From assembly GCA_002104935.1 (NCBI GenBank), contig MCGT01000018.1, positions 248,001 to 312,000 of the forward strand: a DNA stretch of 64,000 nucleotides, read 5' to 3'. A model generated the notes under the pieces. It was not told the DNA's origin, ran no database searches, and was given only the letters and a program-made list of their open reading frames with translations. The DNA comes from Hesseltinella vesiculosa (lineage: Eukaryota; Mucoromycota; Mucoromycetes; Mucorales; Cunninghamellaceae). This document shows positions 19,145-25,485 of this stretch, piece after piece. A program made the position numbers and the translations under genes. How positions within the stretch are numbered: the stretch's first letter is position 1; every line of letters starts with the position of its first letter.

Positions 19145-20132
19145 CTAGGATTCAAATAGATGCCAATCCAGGCAGATCTTGATGGTCTTTTCATACATGC
19201 CCAGGAAGATACAGCCGCCAAGAGAGATCCACAGCATGCGGGGGCCCATGCCGGCAAGTAGGACCTTGGGGCCTTCTTCCTTGAGCATGGTACGCATGGT
19301 CGAGATCATGCCTGGGTCGGGAGCACTGGGGTGGTGTTTCTGGGCGAGGATGATGCGTGTCTTGGTGACATCGAGGGGGGTGGTGAGAGCCGCCGCAATG
19401 GCACCCGAGGCCGAGCCGAAGATCGAGGCCTCCCAAGGCTCCAGCCGCTTGACATGCTTGTGCTTGGCATAGGCGACCTTGAAATATTCGTAGAGCGGGA
19501 ACTGGATACAAGTGAAAGGGATCTCGCGCGCGACGGTCGAGGAAAACCCGCGGAAAAATCCCAGGATGCCCTCGGTCTGCAGTACATATTTGACAGCAGT
19601 CGAGGTAGTAGGGAATTGGCCGGTTTGAAGGCGCTGCTTGATCACTTCTGTCGGGACTCGCACCGTACAGGCTGTCTACAAAATAGGATAAGAATACACC
19701 GATTTACAGGGCAAAAAAAGAAGAAGAAGGGTAGAACAATACCATTTCGCCACATGAGGCAGCGATCATGTGTACCATGGCACGGGAGTCGGTCCAAGGA
19801 TAGAGCAGACGCTTGACAGCTTCGTAGGTGACAAAAAACAAGGAGGCTAAGGGTGATATAGCCAACACGACAAACAGGTGAGATGGAATGAGAGATCCAG
19901 GCCAGATCAATTAGGGCATTCGTTTTTTTTTTGTTATTTTACCGTTGGGAGCGCTGCCAAACGTGGTTGCCAGGAGCCCAGAGTAGACACCTCGATAGAG
20001 ACCAGCCGGCTGGAAACCATGGGCCTGCATTCTTGTTTTCAATGTGTCCAGGGGATGAAGAAGCACATCAACCGTCAGGCCAGCTACGGCACCTGACACT
20101 AGTGCTTGTTTCAAAGTCGCTTGGCGTTCCAT
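19145..20132 (-). CDS. PET8: Mitochondrial S-adenosylmethionine carrier (SLC25A26/Pet8-like)
   Basis: The protein is a mitochondrial carrier with three repeats. Px[DE]xx[KR]-type signatures are [22 protein letters not shown] and [11 protein letters not shown]. It begins [23 protein letters not shown] and ends [19 protein letters not shown]. The short length (about 270 aa), first-repeat [16 protein letters not shown] and [13 protein letters not shown] in repeat 2 match the SAM carrier that brings S-adenosylmethionine into mitochondria in exchange for S-adenosylhomocysteine. Two introns are needed, at about 19850-19955 (which contains a T/A tract) and about 19676-19745. Confidence 0.85.
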
Positions 20133-21213: not shown

Positions 21214-21415
21214 TCTAGAAAAAAAAAAAGCAATTAGGAGAAGGAAAAAGGGAAGAAAACCTGGATTCCCCCTTTTTTATTTGCCGCCTGCACTAGGGAA
21301 AAAAGAAAAATCAACATCCAATCAAATTGCCCCTTCCCCATACCCTAACCAAACATTTTTTTTTACCTGCAAAAGCATTAAACCGTTCTTATCAAGGGAC
21401 AGACGATAACCTTTT

Positions 21416-22807
21416 CTAAAAGGTTGCTCTATCTAAAAAAAATAAAACATGCCTAAAACTCGGGGGATGGAGGGCGAGGGAGGGGACAAAGGCAAGGAGT
21501 CGATGGCGGTGATCAAAGTAGTGACGAGCAATGGCAAACATGTTGGGCGCAGCGGAAGTGTCACGATCCAGCACCACTCGGCACAAATCGCAGCGCAAGA
21601 GGCCGTATATTTTGCTGCCATAAATGTAAAAAGGCTTGAGCTTGTCATGGCAAATGCAGCAACGCTGTATGGATCGATAAAAAAATTGAGTCAGTGACCA
21701 AGTCTTCACTTCTCTCCACTGCACTTGTTCAGCACCTTGCTGGTGTTGAATTCCCATATGGATACCACCAACAAGCGTCCTTGGCTTTGCCATTCCTCGA
21801 GATTGTTGAAGACCAAATTGGATGGCCCAGGTAACTGCTTCTTCAAGGGGGGGTTGCCACTTTCTTGCCTTTAAGGCCGTCGCCAAACACAATCATCGGC
21901 ACACGGTCGGGGGAGGCTACGTGTTTGGTGACTCTGTGGCTCAGTCGCGTAGTTGCCTTCATTGCTGGAGCAGATCTATAAAAAATAAGGCATTCAGAGG
22001 TCTGTTGCCGGTCTGAAAGTTGATTTGTTTTTTTTTTTTTTTTTACCGTCGTTCCGTCATTTCAAGGTGAATGCTGTTGAGCTGACCTTGGACAAACATG
22101 CGTTCTTCCTTAAGGTCATTCAAGGATGCTTCAAGACGAGCAAGTTTCTGATCGAGCTGGTACACAGTGGTAGGTAATGCTGGTCCAGATGCCGACTTCA
22201 TGGCCTTTTTATAGGACATGATTCGCATATTCGTGTTTTGTATGGTGCGTTCCAAGATCGTAAGATTCTGGCGTAAGACTTGCGTCGTTTCGTGAAGCTT
22301 GAGGGTACGCTTGTGTCTGGCACGCTTGCGTCGTTTTCTCCGATTGCGCTTCGTTTTGGTACGCTTTTCTTTCACATACTTGCGCGAGATGCCAGCAAGG
22401 ACATTTGACACATAGCTACACCGCGCTGCCTGCCACGATACGCGTTAAACTTGGCGACCGAGTGTTGGTGCCCATAAAAGGTGAAGAAAATACCGAGGCG
22501 GTCCAGAATGTAGCGACAGCGCTTTTCGTATTCGTGGGGAGATGGATGACGAGGTGGGATGGCGGATTCAATTTGCTGGTAGCTGAGGGAACGGCCATTG
22601 TGTGGGTCCAAAAAAATTGTTGTCTTCTTTCGTTGTTCCAACTCTTGCATTCGTTTCTGCGTTCCACATTGTGCGCGATACTCCCGAGCAGAGACCTTGT
22701 AAACAGGAAATGGTTCCCGAGGGGAGGCTTCTGGGAGTGGGTCGTTGCTAGCGGTTGAGACGAGAGACACAGTGGCTGGGACATCCAGTGACATGAGGCT
22801 GGCTTCG

Positions 22808-22847
<40 letters not shown>

Positions 22848-24961
22848 TATAGAACAAATTGTCTTTTTCCACAAACATAGCACTGTCCACGTCAGGAGTA
22901 CCAGGTGCACCCGTTTTCAGTGTTAATGCACCAGTGTCACGCGTAAGTTCTCGCAGCATGCTATCTGGCTGTCCAGCAGCACCATCACCGTCGTCGTCGC
23001 TTTCATAGGCGCCTTCATCATAACTGTCGCTGCCATCACCAGCACCATCCTCAGCCTGGATTTGACGGGGGAATGGGGTTCCACAAGCCGCTGTGATAAT
23101 GGCCCGTCGGCCAGGGTCCACGGCTGTCATTCGGAAGTGGTCCATGAAGTCGGGTGGCACGTCGTCCATGTGGGGTAACTTGATGGTTGGCCGATTGATC
23201 CGGGGACGGCGGTGGAAATGGAACGAACATGACACGCCGTCCGACCCGGATGCACCAAAAAAGTGCGGGTTGAGCATGATCGACTCCAACATTTCATCTG
23301 AGCTAATTAGAAAAAAAAAAAAAAAAAAAAGAGTAGGGAAAATAGATGAGATTCGACTACACCTTGCCACCCCACCTCTGCCTTTTACCTTGAAAATCCA
23401 AACATGTCCATTTTAAACACCTCGAAAAAAATGGGGAGCGATCCCAAGAAGCTAGCCTGATTGTTGTCAGAGGTAGCGGTTGTAGGGGTGGTGACTGGCC
23501 GGGTGCGGGGCGTAGGACGGGAAGGGCCAGCGACTTGTCGGTCGGCTGGGAACTCTTGACTGGTGTGCGTGTACGACGTGTATTCCGTCAGGCGAGTGAT
23601 CGTCTTCGCAGTGATTGGGATTGCACGGCGATCCAGACCTGGCTCTGGGAGGATGGTGAAGTGAGGTACCTTGACAGGGTTTTCATTTTCTTGGTCCTTG
23701 TAATCTTGATAAGCAGACGCAATTTGAATCAAGATTTTCAGAGTCATGGTTGGATCTTCTTGCAGCTTTCCTTCGTCAATCAAGCCCATGCCAGGCGGCT
23801 TCATAGCCAGGACTTGTCGTGTGATTAAGGCAATGGCTTCATCGGCAGGCGTGTTCGTGCTTTGCGATTCACCCGTAGAGATGTCATGTGGATGGCTCGG
23901 CGAGGGATGGGTGAGGGATGGTGATGGTGGATGTGGGACATCCAGCGAGGGTGAGTTGTTTTCAGCGGTGGTGGTGGTATGTCACCTATTTTAAAATGCG
24001 AAAAAAAAGTGAGTTTTCCCCCCCCCTTTCCGTTTTACGCTCAGTTCCCAGTTTACCTCATGTCCTTGGACAGCAAAGAGGAATTTGATGAACTGCTTCA
24101 CCTTGCGATCAAACTTTTCGGCCAAGCAATTGGTGTAGGCCGTTTCCAATGCATCAAGACAAGGAGTCAAGGTATCGGCGATAAATTTGTGCCCATGGAA
24201 GTGGGCTGGGTCATAGCGGATGCTAGGGTGGTCGCGAGCAAAGGCCATCCAATGAAAGAAGGCAAGGGGGCAGGCGTGCGCGGGTATTTTCACTGGTAAT
24301 GGGGTTGGCAGGATCATTTCGTGAGGCTGGGCTGCGAGGGTACACCAGCTGGGTAAGAGAATAAAGGCCGTTGGCGCAGATGAGGTAATTGTCGAATTCA
24401 TCAGGGAATGACAGAGCAAAGTGATTCAAAAAGATCTGCACACGCACCAAAATGTTCTTCACGCACTTGCTGGTGGCTTCGATGTTTCTTTTGAGTGACA
24501 GAGCGTATGGCAAGTTGACAGCCGCGTCGAAGCCAACCTTTCGAGCAAAGGTTGCATGGCCTGGCATCCATTCCCGAAGAAAGTCGGCCTTGTTGACTTT
24601 GTGCATGGGACAAGCATGGCTGGCAGCAGTCATGTGACCCATGTTGCCACAGGCCTTGCCTGACGCGCCTCTTGGCGACGGCGTTCTGCTTGGGCACGAG
24701 GATCAGCAGACCCAGTACCTGAAGCATAAAGTGGTGAGGACAACAATCACTGGTTTCAACGGCTGACTTACGCTCGCGATATATTTTGGCTTGTGTCCAT
24801 ATAGCAAGGACTTGCTCTTCGGTAAGTTCCCACTCACCACGTCCGTGCTGAAGAGGGGCCAGATGAACCAACTCTTCTCGTGCACGCGCGAACGATGTGT
24901 CGTCCATAAAGCATAAAGTCTCGTAAAAGGCTTGAAGGTGATCTTTGGGGAAATATTGCAT
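21416..24961 (-). CDS. Fanzor (eukaryotic TnpB-like) RuvC nuclease, possibly decayed
   Basis: From the ATG at 24961 (MQYFPKDHLQAFYE) exons encode a zinc-knuckle-like segment CGNMGHMTAASHACPMH, a helical region (SLKRNIEATSKCVKNIL; NGLYSLTQLV), SIRYDPAHF, KFDRKVKQFIKFLF, and then a split RuvC nuclease. RuvC-I is MTAVDPGRRAIITA (Asp codon 23116-23118). A 13-14-residue Asp run follows, then YKVSAREYRAQCG, a basic coiled region (about 22040-22400), VPMIVFGDGLKGK, and SIWEFNTSKV. The zinc ribbon has CCIC (about 21651-21662) and CDLC (21581-21592), and RuvC-III is LDRDTSAAPNMFAIARH (Asp 21560-21562). This order is that of Fanzor/TnpB RNA-guided nucleases. Three places change frame without a good intron: about 24290-24370, about 22379-22440, and the C7 tract at 21847-21853. 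It may therefore be a pseudogene, or the assembly may carry indels. No terminal inverted repeats were seen. Confidence 0.8.
22808..22847. repeat. (TCA)n trinucleotide repeat coding poly-Asp inside the Fanzor gene
   Basis: About 13 consecutive tca/atc units. In the minus-strand reading frame of the Fanzor gene they encode an uninterrupted run of aspartates between RuvC-I and the next conserved block. The run is open in frame, so either selection or recent expansion has kept it a multiple of three. Confidence 0.9.
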
Positions 24962-25485
24962 TTTGCTGAACAAGAAAAAAAAATACAGAAAAGAGAAGGA
25001 ACAAAAAAAAAAGAGCAAGACGAGAAAATGAGCTTCTCTGCTCACGCTCACACAGGCCCTGCTCATTCCTATTATATTCACGCTAATATATTTTTTTAAA
25101 AAATGTGTGAACAGATCAACTTCTTGTCCAGCTGATGACCAAGCTTACGAATAGCATGCCATCATTCAATCTGTGGGTCAAGGCACTCGTAAACATGAAA
25201 GCAAACTTCGCTTCAAACTTCTCAAATTGGCACTGTTCTCATTTAAGAAAGCCTTGCTCCTGATTTTGTGGATTACACAGTGAATTGAGCGATGGTAGTG
25301 GGTTTAGTGACAAATTCACGTTCTTCTTTCTGACTGGCTGCGCTATTTTTTCGCAACATTTTTCCCGTAGTGCTGGCTGGCTGTGGGTGGGTGGGCCACA
25401 AAAAAAAAAAAAAAAAAAGGGTTCTCCTTTTTTTAAAGTCTCTTTTTTCGTTTGTTACCCTTTTTTATCCAATCGACTCGTCATC
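24962..25485. promoter_or_regulatory. Divergent intergenic region between Fanzor and SAPS genes
   Basis: 524 bp between two divergent start codons. It contains A/T tracts, including one of about 20 A at 25400, and pyrimidine-rich sequence before the SAPS start. No TIR, coding exon or clear TATA box was recognised. Confidence 0.45.

Follow-up and report, generated by a model that had tools for sequence, protein, structure and literature searches.

The 64,000-nucleotide stretch of Hesseltinella vesiculosa DNA analysed here (the window; contig MCGT01000018.1, positions 248,001 to 312,000) raises the question of what a gene at 21416-24961, read by a first-pass annotation as a Fanzor or TnpB-like RuvC nuclease that is or was an RNA-guided system, really represents. 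Comparison of copies and their flanks across the genome (27.05 Mb, 85 contigs) identified positions 21291-25372 as a 4082-bp element of a family designated family A, and this element is in all likelihood a decayed DNA transposon that carried a Fanzor1 gene. Fanzors are eukaryotic relatives of TnpB of bacteria and of CRISPR-Cas12, which cut DNA under the guidance of RNA. Family A has inverted ends, direct repeats beginning with CAR, insertions at several sites and a six-exon Fanzor1 gene, the frame of which is intact in a single sister copy. The copy in the window lies in intergenic DNA and is dead, and because it is dead the annotation, right on the protein family, went wrong in details. A Fanzor gene does lie where it was placed, but the unit is the whole mobile element, with the following features:

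21291-25372, minus strand: whole family A element, its ends in gene orientation being CACTACGGGAAAAA towards 25372 and TTCCCTAGTG towards 21291, delimited from six copies and their flanks
21288-21290, no strand: direct repeat CTG (target site duplication) on the 3' side of the gene, CAG in gene orientation
25373-25375, no strand: direct repeat CTG on the 5' side of the gene, part of CCAG in gene orientation
24772-24961, minus strand: exon 1, placed by alignment to the open copy L005, with its start codon at 24959-24961 and a GT..AG intron after it
24057-24718, minus strand: exon 2, with a CCHC-type zinc knuckle at 24607-24651, lacking 55 and 2 bp relative to other copies
23389-23985, minus strand: exon 3, lacking 47 bp, a deletion in common with L006
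22047-23302, minus strand: exon 4, with a WED-type (S)DG motif, RuvC-I with DPG (MTAVDPGRRAIITA, 23089-23130), an acidic insert with a poly-Asp core at 22819-22845, and a helical middle
21736-21975, minus strand: exon 5, with a GDG motif and the alternative catalytic Glu in WEFNTSK (21736-21756)
21453-21664, minus strand: exon 6, with the C4 zinc ribbon (CxxC...CxxC, 21581-21661) and RuvC-III with DRD (LDRDTSAAPNMFAIARH, 21521-21571), a one-base loss shifting the frame before the stop
21349-21433, minus strand: noncoding block after the stop, probable omega-RNA core, with a conserved counterpart in family B and still present in derivatives lacking the gene

Six near-full-length copies of family A were found genome-wide, namely the window copy (C10) and those on C55, C66, C22, C35 and C1, which are 97-99% identical over ungapped columns; searching the genome with the annotated stretch also returned many family A end pieces. 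The elements terminate in short inverted repeats, CACTA...TAGTG, and the Fanzor is their only gene, with no transposase inside. Support for these ends comes from the aligned copies and not from pattern counts, because exact patterns were not enriched in the genome: CACTANGGGAAAAA occurred 17 times against 30 for its reversed control, and CACTANNGRAAAA was rarer than its reversed control (113 versus 187). Fifteen loci with A-type pieces were read further, of which seven (L008, L087, L088, L090, L091, L098 and L099) had both ends without the coding middle and the remainder one end only. Four loci had first matched by their 5' end only; two of them (L098 and L099) are such gene-less derivatives with both ends, and L096 and L097 are 5' parts only.

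The six-exon gene, on the minus strand in the window, is open in L005 (C35) alone among the six copies, with 1072 codons and five introns, all GT..AG. The window copy carries six out-of-frame length changes in addition to in-frame ones, having among its differences from the other copies one base fewer in exon 4, two more in exon 5 and one fewer in exon 6, and its spliced frame meets a first stop after 92 codons. On its sequence, it is a pseudogene that would make no nuclease, so that of the earlier wording, that the locus is or was such a system, only the past tense holds. The left edge at 21416 was mistaken, being merely the stop of the shifted last frame; positions 21453-21455 are where the other copies have their stop codon. 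Elsewhere in the family, L002 has a nonsense codon, L003 a one-base loss, L004 a 7-base duplication and a one-base loss, and L006 losses of 64 and 47 bp. The 47-bp gap is read as a deletion because family B, a related family described below, retains the corresponding coding segment. Since the window copy and L006 have this frame-breaking loss in common and occupy different sites, at least one of them moved after its frame was lost, and proteins made elsewhere therefore moved that copy. The ratio of nonsynonymous to synonymous substitution (dN/dS) in exon 4 was 0.15-0.44 in eight of nine within-family pairs, the ninth giving 0.89 from only four differences; in the between-family comparison synonymous sites were saturated. 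The within-family ratios indicate that exon 4 is under purifying selection.

Family A has relatives in the same genome. Family B comprises 23 loci with 45-49% protein identity to A and an equal six-exon pattern, and its modelled copy L027 (1013 amino acids) scored 32.9 bits against PF07282, over the curated cut-off of 26.3 bits. Intron 4 of L027 is probably GC-AG where family A has GT-AG. Family D (L102, C5:121300-124680; PF07282, 20.8 bits) was counted from L102 and the 3' ends L103-L110; L112-L115, which have D-like terminal letters and other upstream sequence, were left out, and L111 showed no D end by the pattern used. An acidic stretch precedes the WED region in L102. The canonical Fanzor family C (L059) scored 38.4 bits. 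PF07282 matched the genome 122 times at E ≤ 0.1, with 45 matches over the curated cut-off, and beyond A, B, C and D the genome holds several further predicted Fanzor families.

The best Pfam match of the L005 protein was PF07282 (Cas12f1-like_TNB; residues 991-1043, E = 1e-5, 26.0 bits), which the window copy's own last frame (exon 6) also reached (18.7 bits, E = 0.002); zf-CCHC_6 matched residues 102-126 below its cut-off (E = 0.0016), and the best NCBIfam match was IS607_TnpB (E = 0.0068). Compared with a protein collection, L059 retrieved four proteins, among them ones from Hesseltinella, Chlamydoabsidia and Absidia. A profile of A, B, D, C (L059) and two proteins from related fungi, searched against solved structures, gave Fanzor1 of Spizellomyces punctatus (SpuFz1) as the top chain (E = 2e-8), followed by mimivirus L79, Cas12m, GtFz1 (E = 7e-5) and others; the first 22 of its 30 rows (to E = 0.17) were TnpB, Fanzor, Cas12 or related chains, and the rest (from E = 0.35) were unrelated. 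A profile of A, B and D without the canonical relatives still matched mimivirus L79 (E = 3e-5) and SpuFz1 (E = 4e-5). The Fanzor/TnpB-like call is thus borne out, the best Pfam, NCBIfam and structure-profile matches all being TnpB-type, with no other family on top. Every motif that had been named from the letters alone (RuvC-I, the Glu of WEFNTSK, the zinc ribbon, RuvC-III, the knuckle and the poly-Asp run) is present on the minus strand at the positions listed.

Across A, B, D, C and the two relatives, DPG, the Glu before the zinc ribbon, RD, and the A and N of RuvC-III are invariant. RuvC-I reads AVDPGRRAI in A and B, GVDPGHSE in D and GIDPG in C, and the alternative Glu stands six residues ahead of the zinc motif (A, E-FNTSKR-C; B, E-FKTSKL-C); both DPG and a Glu in this position belong to the published marks of Fanzors (PMC10711439; statements on published systems, here and below, refer to excerpts of the cited papers). 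The motif of Bao and Jurka, [TS][TS]xx-C4 zinc finger then RD, is found in L005 as TSKR-CCIC...CDLC...DRD. Where the six-member profile is aligned with the SpuFz1 chain, the family's Glu and last Asp match a Glu and an Asp that lie 65 residues from each other, the spacing of E541 and D606, which are among the SpuFz1 catalytic residues (PMC10432273). At the WED-domain TDG columns the Asp-Gly is kept, and the residue before it is Ser in A, Cys in B and Thr in C and D. The family A protein is a predicted Fanzor1. Two peculiarities flagged in the window copy were compared with the other copies. The Arg usual in RuvC-III is truly lacking in A, but the Pro of AAPN is private to the window copy, the other five of five having AASN. 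A shorter acidic insert after RuvC-I is family-wide, but the long poly-Asp run is mostly an expansion in the window copy, the others being 24-30 bp shorter.

About 150 nt separate the family A stop codon from the element end. Within this region a 66-nt noncoding block aligned between A and B with a local score of 53; when B was dinucleotide-shuffled 1000 times, the scores averaged 18 and none exceeded 39. The block is kept in most gene-less derivatives, L008 lacking its hairpin. The predicted fold of the L005 3' region has three stems, the last of which contains the 3' repeat (z = -1.69, nine of 200 shuffles as good). Three-stem RNAs have been described for Fanzor1 (PMC10711439), and gene-less ghost loci of S. 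punctatus, which the family A derivatives keeping the block resemble, retain omega-RNA (PMC10432273). Conservation of the block strongly suggests an omega-RNA scaffold, and it is taken here as a putative scaffold with that probable role. Lying between a T-run that ends in AG and CAG-GTAAAA, the segment 21349-21433 also resembles a small exon, and an extra 3' exon is an alternative reading.

The insertion junctions, given in gene orientation, were regular on one side: the constant side was the 3' end throughout. In family A, CCAR lies upstream of the element and CAR right after TAGTG, with R equal on both sides, in all seven insertions. Exact 3-bp repeats at full ends were present in four of the seven; L003 and L008 had longer direct repeats with the 5' end cut back, and L004 had two extra bases. 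In L003, L008 and L031/L075 the direct repeats measure about 8-11 bp, and the element has lost some bases from its 5' end. Family B 3' ends were followed by GA in all 13 that were resolved (14 were sought), and where TATGG was intact at the 5' end, YGA stood seven bases upstream in eight of nine; a repeat of 3-10 bp starting with GA occurred in four of the ten insertions with both flanks, two 5' ends being cut back and three not found. Family D 3' ends read TGTAGTG followed by TCR (TCA or TCG) in 9/9, the TC of which, read from the 3' flank alone, might belong to the element. In S. punctatus, the experimentally found target-adjacent motif (TAM), CATA, starts with a CA that is conserved in the flank upstream of the 5' repeat (PMC10432273), and on this ground CCAR is predicted as the TAM of family A.

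A mechanism compatible with these observations can be outlined. The omega-RNA would extend past the 3' inverted repeat to take in flanking sequence, which would give every insertion a guide of its own; the protein and RNA would then cut DNA matching the flank beside CCAR. The target would be the empty site left after excision, or that on the sister chromosome, and repair would copy the element back. Movement, including that of the window copy, would be supplied by a transposase from elsewhere.

Several results weigh against the interpretation of family A as a Fanzor1-carrying transposon with an omega-RNA. No transposase with A- or B-type ends was found, one of the seven PF02992 loci having been read; a PF18758 search gave no match, and neither did its controls. 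The L005 score for PF07282 falls 0.3 bits short of the curated cut-off. As a single sequence, the A protein retrieved no TnpB-type chain from the PDB at E ≤ 1 and no homologue from a large protein collection, one search of which was limited to scoring the 7996 best-sharing candidates. The Parasitella Fanzor1, whose structure is solved, was not among the six-member profile matches at E ≤ 10. AlphaFold2 models of L059 (21 aligned rows) and of L005 exon 4 were of low confidence (predicted local distance difference test scores of 50.8 and 49.6). For the RNA, RNAalifold found none of 22 pairs with both sides changed in alignment A2, and the hairpin alignment A6 had one of seven (UA to CG between A and B, in the first hairpin). 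The A6 covariation score was reached in 5 of 500 shuffles, and sliding the structure by +1 or +2 gave higher scores; folded singly, B and L087 did no better than shuffles.

The alternative that survives best, unlikely as we judge it, is that family A belongs to the CACTA (EnSpm) superfamily, captured a Fanzor and is moved by the CACTA-type transposases of the genome. The ends of A, B and D begin CACTA, the 3-bp repeats are exact in four of seven A insertions, and the genome holds seven PF02992 transposase matches, all over the cut-off. These matches lie elsewhere in the genome, however, and the element itself is without a Tnp2-type (PF02992) transposase; the one such locus read, L101, has other ends, in three of the seven A insertions the repeats are longer or altered and the 5' end is cut back, and the reversed control again outnumbers CACTANNGRAAAA. 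L101 (C85:531000-537500) contains a CACTA-type transposase gene with subterminal CACTAGCCAGGCGCAGG repeats.

It is improbable that the protein, derived from RuvC, no longer cuts and serves as a DNA-binding transposon accessory descended from a Fanzor. Such a role would fit the replacement of the RuvC-III Arg (by Ser, Cys and Trp in A, B and D respectively), the weak profile scores, and a length of 1072 amino acids with large inserts, compared with the 600-700 typical of Fanzor1 (PMC11423790). Against it, the Asp, Glu and Asp and the four zinc cysteines are retained in A, B and D, exon 4 bears the mark of purifying selection, and SpuFz1, which is active, aligns Thr-Cys at the Ala-Arg position.

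We give very little credence to a further variant, in which the insertion motifs CCAR (A), YGA (B) and TCR (D) are themselves TAMs and the nuclease helps to choose or open the target for a one-ended integration. A fixed nick beside the motif would start insertion, the 3' end would be joined exactly, and loose joining of the 5' end would leave variable direct repeats and cut-back 5' ends; if true, the Fanzor would be an active part of this integration and not merely the keeper of the element. Scarcely credible is a chance resemblance, or a host gene with a zinc ribbon merely resembling TnpB, since weak single-sequence searches and the touch of a C1 domain model on the window's last frame (E = 0.021) stand against multiple copies, inverted ends, direct repeats and 22 leading profile rows of Fanzor and TnpB/Cas12 chains, and the copies and profile results refute this reading. 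Nor does the gene fit prokaryotic TnpB (IS605/IS607), a bacterial gene without introns that adjoins TnpA: it has six exons in a eukaryotic genome and reaches 15.4 bits with IS607_TnpB, for which the cut-off is 350. Its setting, a eukaryotic transposon distinct from IS607, is that of a Fanzor1.

The favoured reading, a Fanzor1-carrying DNA transposon, places the families here as new predicted Fanzor families within a known kind of system. Among published elements, MCi-2, MCi-4, ROr-4 and PBl-3 have hosts that we take to be Mucorales, the order of H. vesiculosa. The closest parallel described is Spu-1 with SpuFz1 (PMC10432273, PMC3627910), likewise a single-gene element with inverted repeats, many copies, no internal transposase, gene-less ghost loci in which the RNA region of the 3' end survives, a motif conserved ahead of the 5' repeat, and the same order of Asp-Glu-Asp and zinc ribbon. 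Spu-1 differs in its ends and in having a CATA TAM and a TA repeat where family A has CCAR, and SpuFz1 has one exon and 633 amino acids, whereas the family A gene has six exons, 1072 amino acids and a CCHC knuckle, a feature that the excerpts do not name for SpuFz1. MCi-2 (PMC3627910) has similarly fuzzy 5' ends and repeats with a fixed initial motif and variable length, but is described there as having no recognisable inverted repeats, with 11-12-bp repeats ATAATTNNNN(N), in contrast to the CACTA ends of family A; MCi-4, ROr-4 and PBl-3 have MuDR-like ends and 9-bp repeats (PMC3627910), as opposed to CAR-initial repeats of 3 to at least 11 bp. The SfAV-type Fanzor1 elements of ascovirus (PMC10711439, PMC3627910) are also non-autonomous, carry Fanzor1 only and have short inverted and direct repeats, the repeats being predicted there to form part of the RNA scaffold; they differ in their TTAN target, viral host and ends. 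PpFz1 of Parasitella parasitica (PMC11423790) is another Mucorales Fanzor1 with an extra RuvC insert, of about 100 residues and folded as a cyclophilin-binding domain, whereas that of A is acidic, of low complexity and known from sequence; the PpFz1 TAM is ATN. A literature search returned no paper joining Fanzor with CACTA or with Mucoromycota, and Fanzor with EnSpm matched PMC12633428 by its listing.

What is most useful in this analysis is the set of insertion motifs, each specific to a family. Three families, A, B and D, end in CACTA/TAGTG with an insertion motif differing by family, and natural insertions predict the motif that each nuclease should need beside its target (CCAR in A, YGA in B, TCR in D). 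The three families are diverged and share a genome, and they offer a test of the way in which target recognition by a Fanzor tracks the sites chosen by its transposon. A survey of eukaryotic RNA-guided nucleases published in Science Advances in 2023 may already list H. vesiculosa Fanzors. Two genes to the left of the element, the window contains a mitochondrial carrier gene at 19145-19675 (PF00153, E = 2.6e-35).

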